The notes under the pieces are model-generated. The model had not been told where the DNA came from. It saw only the letters and a program-made list of their open reading frames with translations, and did no database searches. DNA of 41,593 nucleotides from a virus. A program made the position numbers and the translations under genes. Positions 10,729 through 21,814 of this stretch are shown here, piece by piece. The stretch covers positions 1 through 41,593 of IMG/VR virus record IMGVR_UViG_3300046808_000846, one strand, 5' to 3'. The number at the start of each line of letters is the position of its first letter. The first letter of the stretch is position 1.

Positions 10729-11535
10729 GTGAAAACCAAGACCAATCTAAAACCAGAACTTGAAACCGTGAGCGTCGAGGCGCTCATTCCATACGCTCGC
10801 AACAGTCGAACCCACTCTGACGAACAGGTTGCACAGATTGCTGCTTCGATTCGCGAGTTCGGATTCACCAATCCCGTTCTCATCGGAGCAGAGAACGACA
10901 TCATTGCAGGTCACGGCCGCGTTCTGGCTGCTCGCAAGCTTGAGCTGAAGGATGTCCCCTGCATTCGGCTTGGGCATCTCACTGAAACGCAGAAGCGCGC
11001 TTATGTCATCGCTGACAACAAGCTCGCGCTCAACGCAGGTTGGGACGAGGAGCTTCTTGCAATCGAGCTTTCGTCTCTGCGAGAAGTCGGATTTGACCTT
11101 GGGCTGGTTGGTTTTAATGCAGAGCAGATCGAAGCCGCACTGAACCCGCCCGAGCCAGAAAGCAGTTTGAGCGACAACTACACCCACAAGGTGGAGGCCC
11201 CAGTCTATGAGCCAAACGGGGACAAGCCTGCTGTTTCTGAGTTGATCGACAAAAGTCGCTCAGATGCTTTGATTGCCGAAATTGACAAAGCAAAGGTGCC
11301 GCATGAGGTTGCTTCGTTCCTCAAAGCCGCTGCACTTAGGCACACGGTTTTCAACTTTGAGAAAATCGCAGAGTTTTATTGTCACGCAGACAAAGACATT
11401 CAGGCTCTCATGGAGAACTCAGCCCTTGTGATTATCGACTTCAAAAAGGCGATGCAACTTGGGTATGTAAAACTCAAAGATGAGATAGCGGATGCCCTTG
11501 AAGGGGAGCCTAACGAGGAACAATCCGATGAATAA
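10729..11535 (+). CDS. ParB/sulfiredoxin-like domain protein of modification-type loci
   Basis: The gene encodes 268 aa from a GTG at 10729. The N-terminal 95 residues are a ParB-like nuclease domain: VSVEALIPYARNSRTHSDEQV, then GFTNPVLI, then the GHGRVLAARKL motif (about 64-74) and ADNKLALNAGWDEELL. The C-terminal part has SDALIAEIDKAKVPHEVASF and LMENSALVIIDFKKA, a tail I associate with phage ParB proteins next to glycosyltransferases. Such ParB-like domains may be ATPases, CTPases or nucleases, and in phages often sit beside DNA-modifying enzymes. The next gene overlaps its end by 8 bases. GC content is clearly lower than in the terminase genes. It is not a plasmid partition protein: there is no ParA. 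Confidence 0.75.
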   Translation: MKTKTNLKPELETVSVEALIPYARNSRTHSDEQVAQIAASIREFGFTNPVLIGAENDIIAGHGRVLAARKLELKDVPCIRLGHLTETQKRAYVIADNKLALNAGWDEELLAIELSSLREVGFDLGLVGFNAEQIEAALNPPEPESSLSDNYTHKVEAPVYEPNGDKPAVSELIDKSRSDALIAEIDKAKVPHEVASFLKAAALRHTVFNFEKIAEFYCHADKDIQALMENSALVIIDFKKAMQLGYVKLKDEIADALEGEPNEEQSDE

Positions 11536-12388
11536 AAGCTTTTGCGTGTTTATTATCAGCCACGGGCGGCATGATAAAATTGTTACTCTCAAGACATTAG
11601 CAAAACGCGGATACACCGGGCCGCTTTTTATTGTCTGCGACAATGAAGACAAGACCCTTGTTGAATACAGAAACAACTATGGATCAAAACTCCTTGTTTT
11701 TGACAAACTATCGTACGCGCAGAAGGTAGACAGCTGCGACAATTTTCAAAACCGCAGGACAACAACTCATGCGCGAAATGCTTGTTTCGATTTTGCAAAA
11801 CAACTTGGCTATGAGTTTTTTCTAGTGTTGGATGACGACTACACAGATTTTCGCTATACGTTCAACCGTCAGGGTGAATTTATCCGCAAACAGACTAAAG
11901 ACCTCAACGGCGTCTTTGCTGCCATAATCAACTTCCTCGATTCTGATGAGCGAATCGACTCCATTTGCATGATGCAGACGGGGGACATGATTGGAGGAGA
12001 AAACTCCAGTCTTTGGAAGGGAAATTATTTCCCGTTCAAAAACAGAAAGGCAATGAACTCGTTTTTCTGTAAGACGTCCCGGCGCTTTTGGTTCTTCAGC
12101 CGATTAAATGAAGACGTCAATACCTACCTGACTCTTGGAAATCGCGGTCGGTTGTTTTTTACGCTCCCAGAGGTGTACCTTCAGCAAGCGCAAACGCAAG
12201 CAACGGCGGGCGGTATGTCGGACGCTTATCTTGCAAGCGGCACGTATGTGAAGTCATTTTATACGGTTATGTTGTGCCCGTCCTTTGCCATTGCAACGGT
12301 AACAAGCAGCATGAAAAGACTTCATCACAAGATCAGCTGGAATAATGCGATCCCAAAAATTCTCGATGAATCATACAGGAAAGCATGA
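11528..12388 (+). CDS. Putative TET-associated-type (TAGT) DNA-base glycosyltransferase
   Basis: The gene encodes 286 aa from the ATG at 11528 (MNKSFCVFII), with GAGGA about nine bases upstream. It has a GT-A-like glycosyltransferase build. FIISHGRHDKIVTLKTL and GPLFIVCDNEDKT form the nucleotide-sugar half. A conserved TTHARNACFDFAKQLGYEFF helix leads into FLVLDDDYTDF, an acidic DxD-type metal site near residue 100. This pattern resembles the TAGT family proposed to sugar-modify hydroxymethylated bases in phage DNA. The assignment is by motif only. The gene overlaps the ParB-like gene before it and the small terminase after it, so it is expressed with packaging. Its GC content is near 45 percent, unlike its neighbours, which points to horizontal transfer. 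Confidence 0.65.
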   Translation: MNKSFCVFIISHGRHDKIVTLKTLAKRGYTGPLFIVCDNEDKTLVEYRNNYGSKLLVFDKLSYAQKVDSCDNFQNRRTTTHARNACFDFAKQLGYEFFLVLDDDYTDFRYTFNRQGEFIRKQTKDLNGVFAAIINFLDSDERIDSICMMQTGDMIGGENSSLWKGNYFPFKNRKAMNSFFCKTSRRFWFFSRLNEDVNTYLTLGNRGRLFFTLPEVYLQQAQTQATAGGMSDAYLASGTYVKSFYTVMLCPSFAIATVTSSMKRLHHKISWNNAIPKILDESYRKA

Positions 12389-12948
12389 GCGCGCAAGCCC
12401 AGTCACCACACGTTCCAGCAGCCACGTTAGCGAAGCTGTTTGAGGTTACCGCTCAGAGGATTCACCAGCTTGCCGCAGATGGGATTCTAGTGAAGGCCGG
12501 GCGAGGGCAGTTTGAGCTTTGGCCCTCGGTGAGAAATTACATCCGTTTTCTTCGGGAGCGAAAGGTCAACCAGTATGGAGGCGGGAAAGACACTGACGAA
12601 AAAGATGCAGCGCAGGTGCGACTTACGAAAGCGAAAGCCGAAATCGCTGAAATGAACGCGGCGCGGATGCGCGGCGAGTCGCTCGAAGCGGAAACCGTGG
12701 AGCGATTCGTAGGCGGCATGGTCATGGACGCAAAGGTGAAGCTGGAAGCGTTTGCACACAAACTCAGCGGCCAGCTTGAGGGGGCCGATACACTCCCAAA
12801 GCGGCACGCCATCATCGATGCCGCCGTCACAGACGTTTTGAATGAACTCTCCAAATTCGACACTCGCCTCATCGTTGACGATTACGTCGCAACGCATCGT
12901 GAGCTTGTGGAAGCGCAGGCCGAGGCTGACGCCGAGTCAGTGGGCTGA
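12385..12948 (+). CDS. Terminase small subunit (Nu1-like)
   Basis: The gene encodes 187 aa, starting MSAQAQSPHV. An N-terminal winged HTH (TLAKLFEVTAQRIHQLAADG, then ILVKAGRGQFELWPSVRNYI) is like lambda Nu1. It is followed by KAKAEIAEMNAARMRGE and a helical C-terminal part that would contact the large subunit. Nu1-type proteins bind the packaging site and load the large subunit. The ATG overlaps the glycosyltransferase stop, and the large-subunit gene starts within its last 50 bases. The cos or pac site is not obvious; a search in 9403-10728 would be logical. Confidence 0.82.
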   Translation: MSAQAQSPHVPAATLAKLFEVTAQRIHQLAADGILVKAGRGQFELWPSVRNYIRFLRERKVNQYGGGKDTDEKDAAQVRLTKAKAEIAEMNAARMRGESLEAETVERFVGGMVMDAKVKLEAFAHKLSGQLEGADTLPKRHAIIDAAVTDVLNELSKFDTRLIVDDYVATHRELVEAQAEADAESVG

Positions 12949-14815
12949 CGCATACCGGCGGCTTTCGAGCGAGGCGAGCGCAGAGCCAGGGCGATGGGAC
13001 ACGTCCCGGGCCGAATACCAGCGCGGCATGATGGATGCCGTCGTCGACCCCGAGACGGAACAGATCATCATCATGAGTTCGGCGCAGGTTGGGAAAACGG
13101 AGCTTCTCAACAACGTCCTCGGCTTCTTCATCGACTACGACCCCTGTCCGATCCTCGTTTCGCAGGCGACCAAGGACATGGCCGAGGCGTACTCGAAGGA
13201 CCGGCTCGCGCCGATGGTTCGAGACTCCCCAGCGCTGGCTTCGAAGGTCAGCGATTCGAAGAGCCGGGACTCGGGGAACACGATCCTGCACAAGACCTTC
13301 CCAGGGGGGCACGTCACCATCATCGGCGCCGAGTCCCCCACGGGGCTCCGCTCGCGCCCGATCCGAGTGCTTCTCATGGACGAGGTGGACTCCTATCCGG
13401 CAAGCGCCGGGGCCGAGGGCGACCCGGTTTCCTTGGCGATCAAGCGGACGACAACCTTCTGGAATCGGAAGGTCATCCTGACCTCCACCCCGACGATCAA
13501 GGGCTTCTCCCGCATCGAGGCGGCTTACCTCGAAACGGACCAGCGGCGATTTTTTGTCCCGTGCCCGCTCTGCGAGGAACCCCACACCTTGCAATGGGGG
13601 AACGTCGTCTGGGGCGAGAAGACGCCGGCCAAAGGGGATCCGGCCCGGGCCGTTTTCCAGTGCCCGCATTGTTCTGGCTTCTACACGACCGGCCAGAAGA
13701 ACGCGGCGGTCCGCCGGGGGCGCTGGATTGCAGCGGCTCCCTTCCGGGGCAAGGCCGGGTTCCACCTGAGCGAGCTTTACTCACCCTGGCGCACGCTGGC
13801 CGAGACCGTGCGGGACTTCCTTGAAAGCAAGTCCTCCCCCGAGCGGCTGAAGACGTTCGTGAACACGGCCCTCGGGGAGACGTGGGAAGACGCCGGGGAG
13901 GTGGTGCACGATCACGAGCTTCAGGCGCGGGCCGAAACCTACCCCGCCGAGGTGCCCGCCCGGGCGCTCTACCTCACCGCAGGGATCGACACGCAGCGGG
14001 ACCGGTTGGAAGTGGAGGTGGTCGGCTGGGGCTCCGGGGAGGAGTCGTGGAGCATCGCTCACCACGTAGTTTTTGGCGACCCGGACATTCCCGAGGGCAC
14101 CAAGGGCTCGCCGTGGGACGCGCTCACCGACTTCATCCGCCGCCGGTGGAAGCACGAAAGCGGGGTGGACGTATCCGTCTCCCACGCGCTCATCGACTCC
14201 GGCGGCTCGAACACCTCGGCGGTGTACGCCTATTGCAAGCGGCACAAGGGCGACCGGGTTTACCCGATCAAGGGCAAGGGCGGGGACGGCCTTCCGATCA
14301 TCGGGCAGCGGCAGCGGACCCGGACGGCCAAGAGCAAGACCCCGGTGGACCTCTTCATCGTCGGGACGGACAACGCAAAGCACGTCATCCACCGGCGGCT
14401 TCGCATCAACGAGCCGGGCCCAGGTTACTGCCATTTCCCCGCCGGGCGGGATCCCGAGTGGTTCCGGCAGCTCACGGCAGAGAAGTGCATCACCAAATTC
14501 GTCCGGGGGTTCCCGAAGCGGGAGTGGATCAAGGCGGACGGGCGTCGCAACGAGGCGCTCGATTGCCGGGTGTACGCATTCGCCGCGTTCGTGCTCGCGG
14601 CGCCCCAGCTCGACCGCGTCGCCTTCCGGTTGAAGCAGCAGGCCGAGCGGCTCCCCAAGCCCAAGGCGACACCGGTGAAGGCTCCCACGGAAGCCCCTCA
14701 ACAGGAGGCGGAGGAAGAAAACGCACAAGACGCGCCCCCTGAGGAGGGGCACGCTAAAGCCAAACCTGCCCGCGCTCGCAGGAGAAGCGGCTTTGTCCAC
14801 TCATGGCGACTTTAA
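12899..14815 (+). CDS. Terminase large subunit (GpA family)
   Basis: The gene encodes 638 aa. I chose the GTG at 12899 because the family's conserved N-terminus (RPRLTPSQWADAYRRLSSEA) begins just after it. An ATG at 12842 would add 19 residues out of family. The ATPase has SSAQVGKTELL (Walker A-like, near residue 60) and VLLMDEVDSYP (Walker B, near 157). A Cys4 zinc site (CPLC, CPHC) lies near 222-258. The nuclease region has AGIDTQRDRLEVEVVGWG, ALIDSGGSNTSAVY and a final EALDCRVYAFAAFVLA. It cuts concatemers and drives DNA into the prohead. The C-terminal 50 residues are a Pro/Glu/Ala/Lys tail containing the first copy of the 18-bp repeat. Confidence 0.92.
   Translation: MSLWKRRPRLTPSQWADAYRRLSSEASAEPGRWDTSRAEYQRGMMDAVVDPETEQIIIMSSAQVGKTELLNNVLGFFIDYDPCPILVSQATKDMAEAYSKDRLAPMVRDSPALASKVSDSKSRDSGNTILHKTFPGGHVTIIGAESPTGLRSRPIRVLLMDEVDSYPASAGAEGDPVSLAIKRTTTFWNRKVILTSTPTIKGFSRIEAAYLETDQRRFFVPCPLCEEPHTLQWGNVVWGEKTPAKGDPARAVFQCPHCSGFYTTGQKNAAVRRGRWIAAAPFRGKAGFHLSELYSPWRTLAETVRDFLESKSSPERLKTFVNTALGETWEDAGEVVHDHELQARAETYPAEVPARALYLTAGIDTQRDRLEVEVVGWGSGEESWSIAHHVVFGDPDIPEGTKGSPWDALTDFIRRRWKHESGVDVSVSHALIDSGGSNTSAVYAYCKRHKGDRVYPIKGKGGDGLPIIGQRQRTRTAKSKTPVDLFIVGTDNAKHVIHRRLRINEPGPGYCHFPAGRDPEWFRQLTAEKCITKFVRGFPKREWIKADGRRNEALDCRVYAFAAFVLAAPQLDRVAFRLKQQAERLPKPKATPVKAPTEAPQQEAEEENAQDAPPEEGHAKAKPARARRRSGFVHSWRL
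14714..14731 (+). repeat. 18-bp late repeat, copy 1
   Basis: GAAGAAAACGCACAAGAC lies inside the 3' end of the terminase gene, 71 bases before the next start codon. A CCCC/GGGG hairpin follows it. Three identical copies lie at 17291, 24605 and 30955. Confidence 0.85.
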
Positions 14816-15339
14816 CCAAAGGCGAAACCTTCACACTCTCCTGCACGGCGCGACCCGACTCGACCGTTCAGGCGAAGTTCGGCGGGCCCGAGGTGCACAC
14901 CGTCAACGGGACGCTGACGAGCGAGCTTCAGGTTGACCCCGCAACGGGGACGCAGGCGCAGGTGTGGGTTGTCAACGCCGACACGACCGCATGGGCGCTC
15001 GGAAACTACGGTTACGAACTCTGGGTGACGTTTGCGGACGGGACCAAGCGCATCGCGCTCCGGGGCAACCTAGTGCTCTCCGCGTCGTTCTCCGCGCTCC
15101 CCAGCGGATCGAGCGCCGTCTCGAAGCTCCAAACCATCGTGGACTCTTTGGAGTCGATGATTGCGGGCAACGCCCCGGACGGGGTGAAGCGATACAAGAT
15201 CAACAACCGCGAACTGGAACGTTACTCGGCGGTCGAACTCCTCAGCCTCCTCAAATACTGGCGCGGGCGGCTCCTGGCTGAAAAGCGGCGTGCTGCGGGT
15301 GAATCCCGGATCGGGCGCCGTATCGAAATGCACTTCTAA
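14803..15339 (+). CDS. Head-completion candidate (gpW-like C-terminus, Ig-like N-terminus)
   Basis: The gene encodes 178 aa, starting MATLTKGETF. Residues 1-100 look like an immunoglobulin-like beta sandwich (FTLSCTARPDSTVQAKFGG, YGYELWVTFADGTK, LRGNLVLS), as in phage baseplate or head proteins of the BppU kind. Residues 105-178 are helical and include YKINNRELERYSAVELLSLL and KYWRGRLLAEKRR, resembling lambda gpW-type head-joining proteins. Lambda also places W between terminase A and portal B, as here. The start overlaps the terminase end by 13 bases. Role: probably stabilises the packaged head for tail attachment; the fused N-terminal domain is unusual. Confidence 0.55.
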   Translation: MATLTKGETFTLSCTARPDSTVQAKFGGPEVHTVNGTLTSELQVDPATGTQAQVWVVNADTTAWALGNYGYELWVTFADGTKRIALRGNLVLSASFSALPSGSSAVSKLQTIVDSLESMIAGNAPDGVKRYKINNRELERYSAVELLSLLKYWRGRLLAEKRRAAGESRIGRRIEMHF

Positions 15340-15342
15340 GAA

Positions 15343-16866
15343 ATGGGCTTCCTCTCGAAACTGTTTGGCGGCGGGGGAACCGAAGAACGCTCGGCGACCG
15401 TTGTCGGAAAGCGCGCCGGGCGCATGATGAACGCGGCGGGGCTTCTTCAGCAGGCCGCCGCCACGGGCCGCCTTGAGCAGTCTTGGCAAACGTGGCCGAC
15501 GACCCCGGACGCTCTGATTTACCAGAACTGGCGCGTCCTCGTGGCCCGCTCGCGGGAGCAGTACGAGAACAACGACCACGCCCGCAAATTCATTCAGATG
15601 GTCCGCGAAAACGTCGTCGGGCCGTGCGGCTTTGAGCTTCAGGCCGGGATCAAGGATCCGAACGGGACCACGGACATCCTCGCTTCCAAGGCGATCGAAG
15701 AGGCGTTTGACGCCTTCAGCCGCAAGGGGACGTTTGAAATCACCGGCACAATGTCCCGCGCCGAAGTCGAGCGGCTCATCGTTTCGACGGTAGCCATCGA
15801 CGGCGAGGTGTTTGCGGTGAAGGTCCGGGGATCCGAAGCGCCGAACGGAGCTTTTTGCGTCCAGCTCATGGACCCGATGCTTGTGCATCCACAGCACTTC
15901 GAACCCCTCGGGAATGGAAACTCCATCCGGCACGGCATCGAGTTCACCCCCGCAGGCCGCCCGGTGGCGTATTACTTCCAGCAATACGACGAGCGCCAAG
16001 TGGGCTACGTCCAAATGACGTGGAAAAGCGCCATGCGGATCCCGGCGGAAGACGTCATCCACCTCTTCGTCCCCGAGAAGATCGGGCAGAAGCGCGGGCT
16101 GCCGTGGATGCGGACGGCGCTCTGGAGGATGCGAATGCTCTCCGGCTTTGAAGACGCGGCGGTCACCAACGCGCGGATCGGGGCGGCCAAGATGGGGTTC
16201 TTCCGCGACCCCAACATGGACAGCGAACCCGGGGACGAGCCTTTCCAAATGGACGCGGAGCCCGGCGTTTTCGAAGACATCGGGAGCAAGGAGTTCGTTC
16301 AGTTCAACCCGCAGTTCCCGAGCGACAATTTCGACCCGTTTGTCAAAGCCATGCTTCGCAGCATCGCAAGCGGCTTGGGCGTTTCGTACAACAACATCGC
16401 CAACGACCTCACCTCGGTCAACTTCAGCTCGATCCGGCAGGGGGCGCTTGACGAGCGCGAGGTTTGGAAGGGGCTTCAGGAGTGGTTCATCTCGTCTTGG
16501 TGCTGGCCGGTGTACGAGGCTTGGCTCCAGATGGGCCTCCTCTCCAACAGCATCACCGTCGCGGGCAAGCCGCTGAAATTCGAGCGGCTTGAGAAATACA
16601 AGGCCGTCTCGTGGCAGGGCCGCCGGTGGAGTTGGATTGACCCGGCGTCCGAGATGAGCGCGAACCAAATCGCCCTCGGCCTCAACCTCACCTCGCCCTC
16701 CGCCATCATCCGGGATTCCGGGCGCGACCCCGAAGACGTCTTCGAGGAAATCGCGCGGGACAAAAAGGAGAAGGCGCGCCTCGGCATCGAAGACGTTCCG
16801 CTCCCAGGCTCGCCCCAGGCGCAACAGCAGCAGCAGAAACAAAAACCAAAACCAAGCAATGAGTGA
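15343..16866 (+). CDS. Portal protein (lambda family)
   Basis: The gene encodes 507 aa, starting MGFLSKLFGG. Family landmarks include SREQYENNDHARKFIQMVRENVVGP near residue 70 (split by a turn), the VSTVAIDGEVFAVKV core, ADEDVIHL-like PAEDVIHLFVPEKIGQKRGLPW near 235-257, and ASGLGVSYNNIANDLTSVNFSS near 345. The C-terminus is Gln/Lys/Pro-rich. Portal proteins form the dodecameric ring through which DNA enters and leaves the head. Length and motifs are normal for the lambda portal group. The stop overlaps the next gene by 8 bases. The gene follows the gpW-like gene by three bases, in the lambda W-B order. Confidence 0.92.
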   Translation: MGFLSKLFGGGGTEERSATVVGKRAGRMMNAAGLLQQAAATGRLEQSWQTWPTTPDALIYQNWRVLVARSREQYENNDHARKFIQMVRENVVGPCGFELQAGIKDPNGTTDILASKAIEEAFDAFSRKGTFEITGTMSRAEVERLIVSTVAIDGEVFAVKVRGSEAPNGAFCVQLMDPMLVHPQHFEPLGNGNSIRHGIEFTPAGRPVAYYFQQYDERQVGYVQMTWKSAMRIPAEDVIHLFVPEKIGQKRGLPWMRTALWRMRMLSGFEDAAVTNARIGAAKMGFFRDPNMDSEPGDEPFQMDAEPGVFEDIGSKEFVQFNPQFPSDNFDPFVKAMLRSIASGLGVSYNNIANDLTSVNFSSIRQGALDEREVWKGLQEWFISSWCWPVYEAWLQMGLLSNSITVAGKPLKFERLEKYKAVSWQGRRWSWIDPASEMSANQIALGLNLTSPSAIIRDSGRDPEDVFEEIARDKKEKARLGIEDVPLPGSPQAQQQQQKQKPKPSNE

Positions 16867-17329
16867 CGAACAGCAGCAGCCGCAGGAACAGCCGAACCCC
16901 GAGCACGATCTCGCCGTGCAACGATCTCAGGCCGTGATGGCCGTGGCGCGCGCGTGGGGCATCGAAACGCACGTGGGCCTCACCGCCCTCGTGACAGCGA
17001 TCGGCAACATCCAACTCCTCGACTCCAAGAACAAGGACTACGGGACGCAGAACATCGCGCGCTTTGGCGAAATCGGCGTCGTGGTGCGGGCCTCGGACAA
17101 ACTCGCGCGGCTCGAAACTCTGGCCTTCTCGGGCCGTCAGCCAAACCACGAAAGCGTCCTCGACTCATGGCGGGATCTCTCGCTTTACGGCCTCATCGGG
17201 CAGCTTTGCCACGCCGGGACGTGGCCGGGCGTAGCGCGCCCCCAACAGCAGGCGCCGCAGGTTGTCACGATCGGCGGGCCGGAGGGCGGTGAAGAAAACG
17301 CACAAGACCCCGAGCAGCCGCAACCTTAG
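16859..17329 (+). CDS. DUF1599-like protein (nucleotide modification-associated)
   Basis: The gene encodes 156 aa, starting MSDEQQQPQE. The conserved block, about residues 55-110, reads LLDSKNKDYG, then FGEIGVVVRASDKLARLETL, then ESVLDSWRDLSLYGLIG. These features (K-x-DYG, a DK-x-x-RL helix, an E-x-x-x-D-x2-x-DL helix) match DUF1599, called nucleotide modification-associated domain 1 in family lists. It is a helical fold related in style to MazG/dUTPase-like pyrophosphatases. The gene sits between portal and capsid, where lambda has no such gene. With the glycosyltransferase and ParB-like genes it suggests modified DNA. The C-terminal tail carries repeat copy 2. Confidence 0.65.
   Translation: MSDEQQQPQEQPNPEHDLAVQRSQAVMAVARAWGIETHVGLTALVTAIGNIQLLDSKNKDYGTQNIARFGEIGVVVRASDKLARLETLAFSGRQPNHESVLDSWRDLSLYGLIGQLCHAGTWPGVARPQQQAPQVVTIGGPEGGEENAQDPEQPQP
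17291..17308 (+). repeat. 18-bp late repeat, copy 2
   Basis: GAAGAAAACGCACAAGAC lies 30 bases before the capsid start codon, inside the 3' end of the DUF1599-like gene. The leader between repeat and ATG ends TAGTTTGCCACCATG, similar to that before the tail sheath gene. Confidence 0.85.
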
Positions 17330-19750: not shown

Positions 19751-21814
19751 ATGCGCCAAATCAACTCGGATTCCTTCAAAACCAGCTCGAACATCTCTTC
19801 GAAATTTCGAGAGACCTTTGAGACGTGGCCGTCTTCGTCCTGGAACCAGAGCAAGGCGTCCGGGGACATCATCACAGTAGACGGGAACGCCCTTGGAGCG
19901 TCCTACCTTGTCATTTCGGTCGACCCGCTAAGTTCTGGCACCGAAAGCTTTGTAGACACGGTTCAGTCTTTTCAGATGCCGATTGAGTTGGCGATTGGCG
20001 CTCATCTTTCGCAAAACGCTTGGGGTCAAGACGCGTCAATCGAATTTATTGACAGGGATTTCATCACGCCATCCGTTGCGGATATTGAAATCGCCAGCAT
20101 CACGCAAGCCACGACCACTTTAACGGTCGACACGGTTTTGCCGCACAACCTTGCGGTCGGAAAACGAATCGGCATCCGTGATTGCAGCAACGCGGTCGCC
20201 AACTACCCATCGCTCGTCATTGCAACGGTCAACTCGCCAACTCAATTCACTTGCACAGGCGGGCCCAACTCGACCATCCCGTCTCAGACGATCACGAACC
20301 CTGTAGGAGCAAAAGGGTTTGTGTATTTCCGCCCGGCTTTGAGTAACAGCCGGAATGGCTCTTCTCTGCACTTCGAAAGCTCGACCGCGACGCTTGGGTT
20401 TATCTATGGAAGAGCATCCGCAGGCGATGCAATCGCCTTCGGTTCTGGAAGCGGCAACGCAATCAACGCGCGGCAAGCCACAACGGTCGGAACAACGGCT
20501 TCGGTGGCGCTTGTATCTTCGCCATTCACTTACTCTTGGACGCCGACAAACGAGTATCGTTTAACCATGATGGCCGACAGGCTTCAGTGGTCCGACGCGC
20601 TTATTGACTCGGTTGCGGCAAGCACAAACAGGTTGCTGCGGACTCAAGTCGTCCCTAATCCTTCGAAGGACTATTTCCTTCGCCTAAAGGTCAGAACAGA
20701 GCCTTCTACCACCAAGCCTTCGGCGCAAATTGTTACCGTTAGCAAAGCCGGGGCAACGACGGCCACGGTCACAACGGACGTTCCGCACGGACTTGTCACC
20801 GGCGATCTTGTTATCGGGTACGGCGTTCGCGATACGGGGACAGGTTTTTATCCGGCCCTTACCACGCCAGCCGCTGTTACTGTCCTGACTCCGACAACCT
20901 TCACGGTTGTTTGGGGGACCGCCGCAACAAACACAAGTTACGGCGGGTTTGTCTGCAAGGTAAACGCTGCTTGCCCGCTGCCCGGAGCCATCTCGCAATC
21001 CATTCAGTCCGCCGTCAAAACGACTTTGGTGGACGGACAAAGCCAAATTGTTTTGGTTGGTTCTGCAAACTGGTCCGGCTTCTTTGTCGGGGACTACGTG
21101 AACCTGCTTGGAGTTCGGGACACAGCAACAGGCGCAAGCATCGGAATTGACGGCGCTTGGAAGGTTGCCAACATTTCCACGACGTCGCTCACACTGGTGA
21201 ACATTCCCGGCAACTCTCCAACGGTTGCTGACTTCTCGATTATCAACTGCGGCGGCGGCGTCATAAAACGAACCGATTTCCGTATTTCGTATGCCCGCAT
21301 CTTTGACTTCGATCGCGAGCGCGTGGAAATCCTTCCTCGCCCAACTGGCGACATCGCAAACGCCGCTCCCGTTGCAGTCCAGAACACTCCGGCGGTAACG
21401 GTATCGAGCGGAACCATCACGACCGTTTCCGCCGTAACGGCCGCAGGCACGCCCACAGCGCCGGCGACCCCGTATTTCCTAAACAGCACGGCCAGCACAA
21501 ACGGGAACCTAATTGTTACCGGGACGAGTGGGCTGCAAGCCTTCTATGCAACCAACACGGGGGCGGCAGTTGCTTATGTTAAGCTGTACAACAAAGCCAC
21601 GGCGCCGACGGTTGGAACAGACATTCCTGAAATGGTCATTCCTATTCCCGCAGCGGTTGGGGGTGTTCCAGGATGGGTTGAGCTAACGCCCGGATTTAAC
21701 GCCTACCGATTTGCGCTTGGGCTGGGAATTGCAATCACTGGCGGGGTTGCGGACAGTGACACAACCGCCGTTGCAGCAGGACAAGTGAAAGTGAAACTTT
21801 CCCGAACCGTTTAA
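19751..21814 (+). CDS. Large repeat-bearing virion protein, candidate capsid decoration/adhesin
   Basis: The gene encodes 687 aa, starting MRQINSDSFK. It is rich in Thr, Ser, Ala, Val and Gly with almost no charge clusters, like fibres and adhesins. Three diverged copies of a beta repeat are visible (about 117-175, 325-390, 430-495). They share LP/VPH-N/G-L-x2-G-x2-(I/V)-G, a VRD-type turn and P-T-x-FT. The first 110 residues (SSSWNQSKASGDIITVDGNA and on) look like a glycan-binding or attachment region. The last 90 residues form another beta domain ending KVKLSRTV. Its position between capsid and head-tail joining genes argues for a head decoration protein, not a tail fibre. It is lower in GC than its neighbours. 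Confidence 0.55.
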   Translation: MRQINSDSFKTSSNISSKFRETFETWPSSSWNQSKASGDIITVDGNALGASYLVISVDPLSSGTESFVDTVQSFQMPIELAIGAHLSQNAWGQDASIEFIDRDFITPSVADIEIASITQATTTLTVDTVLPHNLAVGKRIGIRDCSNAVANYPSLVIATVNSPTQFTCTGGPNSTIPSQTITNPVGAKGFVYFRPALSNSRNGSSLHFESSTATLGFIYGRASAGDAIAFGSGSGNAINARQATTVGTTASVALVSSPFTYSWTPTNEYRLTMMADRLQWSDALIDSVAASTNRLLRTQVVPNPSKDYFLRLKVRTEPSTTKPSAQIVTVSKAGATTATVTTDVPHGLVTGDLVIGYGVRDTGTGFYPALTTPAAVTVLTPTTFTVVWGTAATNTSYGGFVCKVNAACPLPGAISQSIQSAVKTTLVDGQSQIVLVGSANWSGFFVGDYVNLLGVRDTATGASIGIDGAWKVANISTTSLTLVNIPGNSPTVADFSIINCGGGVIKRTDFRISYARIFDFDRERVEILPRPTGDIANAAPVAVQNTPAVTVSSGTITTVSAVTAAGTPTAPATPYFLNSTASTNGNLIVTGTSGLQAFYATNTGAAVAYVKLYNKATAPTVGTDIPEMVIPIPAAVGGVPGWVELTPGFNAYRFALGLGIAITGGVADSDTTAVAAGQVKVKLSRTV

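Follow-up and report, generated by a model that had tools for sequence, protein, structure and literature searches.

The C-terminal tail of a ParB-like phage protein accompanies a TAGT glycosyltransferase: a probable DNA-tethered glycosylation module without a recognized hydroxylase gene

The window analyzed here is the whole IMG/VR record IMGVR_UViG_3300046808_000846 with a length of 41,593 bases, which is marked linear and is possibly a fragment. Genes coding for sheath, tube, gpU, baseplate J and gp25 proteins assign it to a contractile-tailed phage. Near-identical DNA was essentially absent from the phage collection, where a single local match of 142 bases was found. A 687-aa protein encoded in the structural region (19751–21814) has no match in Pfam or PHROG.

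Three overlapping genes were found on the plus strand upstream of the genes for the terminase large subunit, the portal and the capsid, which were assigned by profile matches. The first one (10729–11535) codes for a ParB-like protein of 268 aa, which matches ParB_N (PF02195, E = 6e-7) and, over its full length, phrog_620 (E = 1e-61). The second one (11528–12388) starts 8 nt inside the parB gene and codes for a TAGT glycosyltransferase of 286 aa, whose match to PF20691 (E = 1e-38; 133.7 bits) lies well above the curated cut-off of 27.5 bits. Its stop codon overlaps the start of the third gene, coding for the terminase small subunit (12385–12948; phrog_57, E = 9e-25), which belongs to the context and not to the module described below. 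A preliminary description had placed a ParB-like protein whose C-terminal tail is modification-associated, and a TAGT-type enzyme, at these positions, and the profile searches confirm both genes. The G+C content is 44% in the TAGT gene and 47% in the tail-coding region, compared to 61.5% in the window, which makes a foreign origin of the module probable.

In the alignment of the TAGT, the residues D102-D103-D104 (DxD) and N194-E195-D196 were identified as motifs, with D102–D104 being invariant. The DxD motif, which is the metal and nucleotide-sugar motif, is thus intact in the window enzyme. A dN/dS of about 0.065 between the window and a 99% relative, and of about 0.07 also in Escherichia coli, shows purifying selection and, judged by these substitution ratios, a gene that is in use. 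Convincing sequence relatives of the TAGT or of the tail were not found in the PDB, and a search of the PLSDB plasmids for the TAGT yielded zero matches.

ParB is a CTP-gated DNA clamp. The AlphaFold2 model of the ParB-like protein (pLDDT 87) has the CDP/CTP-bound ParB structures 6sdk and 7bnr as its best PDB matches, and the ParB_N fold matches CDP-bound ParB with a Foldseek E of 5e-8. This domain (residues ~1–140; 10729–11148, plus strand) keeps the nucleotide-binding motif G61-x-x-R64, with G61 invariant and R64 present in at least 90% of the 78–84 homologs, as well as a conserved N97. ParB partition proteins also have a central helix-turn-helix domain binding parS. The C-terminal part of the window protein is the tail (residues 151–255; 11179–11493, plus strand), an unnamed domain of about 105 residues which is predicted by the model to form five helices. 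A known fold was not recognized for it, as the best Foldseek match had an E of 2.6 or more and the VIA-align rows reached Z 3.1 at most, which does not show the fold to be a new one.

In annotated relatives the ParB and TAGT genes are paired as well, usually directly before the terminase genes. The carriers comprise E. coli lambdoid phages, the Lactobacillus phages jlb1 and c5, the Nocardia phage NTR1, a Porphyromonas phage and the haloarchaeal virus HHTV-2. For a wider survey, 180 TAGT loci were gathered by the TAGT sequence only and the upstream DNA was then inspected; the sample covers the subfamily nearest to the window, with T6 and Aeromonas phage 65 serving as distant TAGTs, and most of the records are fragments. 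The tail was found upstream of the TAGT in each of the 177 loci with enough upstream DNA. It is not immediately adjacent in 10 of them, in part because the reading frame is broken or because a methyltransferase gene or another TAGT copy intervenes. Of the 177 loci, 128 encode the tail as a fusion with ParB_N and three as a fusion with a divergent long N-terminus; ParB_N and tail lie in separate frames in two, and seven are cut at the contig end. In the remaining 37 loci the tail is a stand-alone protein of about 130 aa.

The linkage also holds in the opposite direction. With the tail alone as query, 74 loci were retrieved, of which 73 carry a TAGT directly downstream; in the single exception the TAGT is fused to a methyltransferase and lies 3 kb away. 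In an annotated collection of 50,697 phage records, tail matches occur in 28, all from TAGT-bearing phages. ParB_N and tail are parts of one polypeptide, yet only the divergence of the tail tracks that of the TAGT (r = 0.44, vs. r = 0.02 for ParB_N; determined for ParB-tail proteins, where shared inheritance may contribute). A gene fusion of tail and TAGT was not found among the loci examined. TAGT and the C-terminal tail of the ParB protein make up the conserved unit, and ParB_N is replaceable. The ParB protein had been proposed before as a member of a modification gene set, and its pairing with the TAGT bears this out, but treating it as a mere neighbor of the TAGT was incomplete, since the tail is obligate and ParB_N is not. 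In Lactobacillus phage LL-Ku an in-frame deletion has joined the N-terminus of ParB to the central part of the TAGT (ORF1; L009:90-938), leaving a decayed module, which is thus dispensable there.

Annotators name the ParB-like protein a partition protein, and it could accordingly serve prophage partition or regulation, with the TAGT as a passenger without a linked role. This seems hardly credible, as the linkage between tail and TAGT is obligate in both directions, ParB_N can be missing and the tail cannot, the TAGT is under purifying selection, and ParA is not annotated beside the ParB-like gene in the annotated carriers.

The tail-only proteins start with sequences like MKQINLFG or MFKQPTLDIFD, and the bacterial beta-clamp-binding motif is QL[SD]LF with its variants. 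In its broad form, this QxxLF-type motif was found in 40 of 47 distinct tail-only proteins, compared to 1 of 149 ParB forms (Fisher's test, 3e-33) and to an expectation of 1.0 after shuffling; the motif itself is short, and seven of the 47 lack it. On the TAGT tree, the state changes between ParB_N and tail-only at least nine times, six of these changes being forced by supported branches. A DnaN-like sliding clamp is encoded by the gene following the TAGT in six tail-only loci, with weak Pfam E-values of 4e-6 to 7e-4. Based on the motif swap, the changes on the tree, the divergence distances, the clamp genes and the ParB-like model, two unrelated tethers to DNA rings appear to serve one adaptor.

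Some of the tail-only copies are located among replication or sliding-clamp genes. The assumption that modification takes place just before packaging, which was derived from the overlap with the terminase genes, is for this reason not general; the overlap of TAGT and terminase marks the point where the late operon begins, as in many temperate phages. The same positions bear on the possibility that the TAGT modifies a protein, i.e., terminase, portal, capsid or the ParB-tail protein, instead of DNA. Most copies of the module do indeed lie beside genes for terminase and head proteins. However, the partner of the TAGT carries either ParB_N or a clamp motif, tail-only copies lie beside replication or clamp genes and the terminases which follow the module belong to many different families, so that a protein substrate is very unlikely. 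A link of the ParB-tail/TAGT pair to DNA modification, as put forward in the preliminary description, is likely.

Glycosylation of DNA is thought to require a hydroxyl handle made beforehand. A glycosyltransferase needs a nucleophile, and for the TAGT family none is known on plain DNA. In the window, neither TET/JBP (PF12851) nor thymidylate synthase/dCMP hydroxymethylase (PF00303) was matched, and the scanned proteins showed no other nucleotide-modifying family. The lack of TET/JBP and thymidylate synthase-like genes noted in the preliminary description is thereby upheld, with both detectors positive on controls: PF12851 found the TET/JBP of mycobacteriophage Nigel, and PF00303 found the thymidylate synthase (TS)-family genes of T6, one of which adjoins the T6 TAGT. 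In the whole records of relatives, TET/JBP was found above the cut-off in none of 60 and a TS-type gene in one of 60, a T4-like Vibrio phage; in the many incomplete ones among these records, a hydroxylase gene may have been lost. Hydroxylase genes are also missing in small, well-annotated carriers, namely c5 (31.8 kb), jlb1 (38 kb), an E. coli phage (38.7 kb) and HHTV-2 (52.6 kb). Methylation at C5 by a phage enzyme was rejected as a general first step, as a C5-methyltransferase is present in only 2 of 50 records. The profile searches over these 60 and 50 records, respectively, likewise led to the rejection of a hidden TET/JBP, TS or C5-methyltransferase in the carriers. Published modified-base chemistry was not found for any carrier, including Pv27, c5/LL-Ku and HHTV-2.

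The acceptor could still be a conventional hydroxymethyl or hydroxy base provided by an unrecognized phage enzyme or by a host enzyme, which would make this an ordinary TAGT system. Characterized TAGTs do use hydroxymethyl-derived bases (T6; PMC13216743), the T4-like Vibrio carrier has a TS-family gene, and most survey records are incomplete. Nevertheless, we regard this as unlikely, because no such enzyme is present in c5, jlb1, the E. coli phage or HHTV-2, and the absence holds for hosts of many phyla and also for an archaeal virus, while the detectors were positive on Nigel and T6.

The tail is absent from T6, Aeromonas phage 65 and Nigel, and the first two encode TS-family enzymes; thus, the tail accompanies those TAGTs for which no hydroxylase is visible. 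This would also fit a tail which itself creates the acceptor group in place of TET/JBP, with the TAGT glycosylating the product. The tail is obligate here and missing both in T6, where hydroxymethyl bases are supplied, and in Aeromonas phage 65, and R204, Y217, E229 and D237 are invariant in it, as is A214. A helical domain of about 105 residues without a known cofactor motif or a clear fold match is nevertheless a poor candidate for an enzyme. A diiron or other metal site was rejected, since the histidines lack strict conservation. Conservation is highest in the segment SALVIID, which forms a lower-confidence loop in the model of the isolated tail and is more like what is expected of a docking surface. 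A catalytic tail is therefore considered quite improbable.

The best explanation, which we consider fairly probable, is a two-component, DNA-tethered glycosylation module consisting of TAGT and tail that works without a phage-encoded hydroxylase. The tail would bind the TAGT and hold it on the DNA, which it would reach either by the fused ParB_N, as in the window phage, or by an N-terminal QxxLF peptide docking on the replication sliding clamp. The TAGT, a GT-A type enzyme, would use a host nucleotide sugar as donor to glycosylate the phage DNA during or after replication, which presumably blocks restriction or CRISPR. As a phage-encoded base hydroxylase was not found, the acceptor group would either be present on DNA that is ordinary or methylated by the host, with an exocyclic amine as the simplest candidate, or be made by an unrecognized enzyme. 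The stronger claim that these phages and E. coli Rac prophages glycosylate bases which were never hydroxylated, the tail with its two sliding-clamp tethers letting the TAGT use an ordinary base (e.g., at an exocyclic amine), is put forward tentatively and falls somewhat short of probable.

Nucleotide-sugar enzymes encoded beside the TAGT support its role as a genuine sugar transferase and suggest that the sugars vary. A UDP-galactopyranose mutase (L177:10828-11973) and a member of the GDP-mannose-dehydratase/epimerase family (L150:3417-4415) were each found directly after the TAGT, hinting at unusual sugar donors, and a second glycosyltransferase is located beside it in three loci (L058, L053, L061). 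A radical SAM gene (PF04055, some with SPASM) adjoins the TAGT in 10 loci, e.g., L007:13941-14900; some of these also show two tandem TAGT copies. A methyltransferase lies between tail and TAGT in L086, L123, L128 and L131, and the class I methyltransferase fused to a TAGT in L262 (8427-10250) is related to it.

The preliminary description had counted a DUF1599-like protein (16859–17329, plus strand) as a third member of the set. It matches PF07659 (DUF1599/Nmad1) over a sub-segment only, with E = 0.14 and 12.9 bits against a cut-off of 25, and resembles a phage "nucleotide modification associated domain protein" (E = 2e-7). Judged from these matches it is a distant DUF1599 relative standing apart from the module, and since only 3 of the roughly 255 loci with a TAGT or tail contain such a gene, it was excluded from the set.

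Several known systems share parts of this arrangement. The T6 beta-glucosyl-HMC-alpha-glucosyltransferase is likewise a single-domain PF20691 enzyme of about 280 aa, but it acts on a hydroxymethyl-derived base without a tail partner, whereas the window shows no hydroxylase gene and has the tail as an obligate partner. "Solitary" TAGTs, without alpha- or beta-glucosyltransferase, were described in 288 of 753 phage genomes in a study which does not mention ParB (PMC13216743); they probably include enzymes of the window type, for which the present analysis adds the partner domain and the exchange of tethers. The T4 alpha-glucosyltransferase also modifies DNA and co-purifies with the sliding clamp gp45 (PMC13216743), but in contrast to the window module it binds the clamp directly, has a GT-B fold and uses hydroxymethyl-C. 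ParB_N beside or fused to a phage DNA-modifying enzyme is also known from ParBc genes occurring with the cytosine C5-carboxymethyltransferase CmoX and from ParB-methyltransferase fusions (PMC12783734; phrog_498), although the chemistry differs. In mycobacteriophage Nigel, gp1 and gp2 encode ParB_N and TET/JBP in the same slot and layout before the terminase, but without tail and TAGT, the enzyme being a dioxygenase. Nigel gp2 (NC_011044; L189:776-1744) is annotated as "queuine tRNA-ribosyltransferase" and, as it matches Tet_JBP (PF12851, E = 4e-6), is likely a misannotated TET/JBP dioxygenase.

The intact module was found in 885 of 5,426 complete E. coli genomes at a coverage of at least 80%, and 1,572 of them show any match. 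Its location in the Rac prophage was read in one matching E. coli genome and in K-12. K-12 MG1655 contains ynaK (b1365, 87 aa; L265:16378-16641) and lacks tail, TAGT and terminase; going by its sequence, ynaK is the N-terminal ParB_N remnant of the module's ParB-tail protein, so that the module explains this gene. Because intact copies are present in E. coli prophages, the module can be tested at once in this host. A conserved, widespread two-gene unit without a recognizable handle-making enzyme suggests that either the acceptor or an enzyme is new. The module may also explain why ParB domains, long a puzzle, stand next to phage enzymes that modify DNA: they would be a tether interchangeable with one to the replication clamp. 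Carried by hundreds of phages and by the Rac prophage of many E. coli strains, the module suggests an undescribed route of DNA glycosylation.
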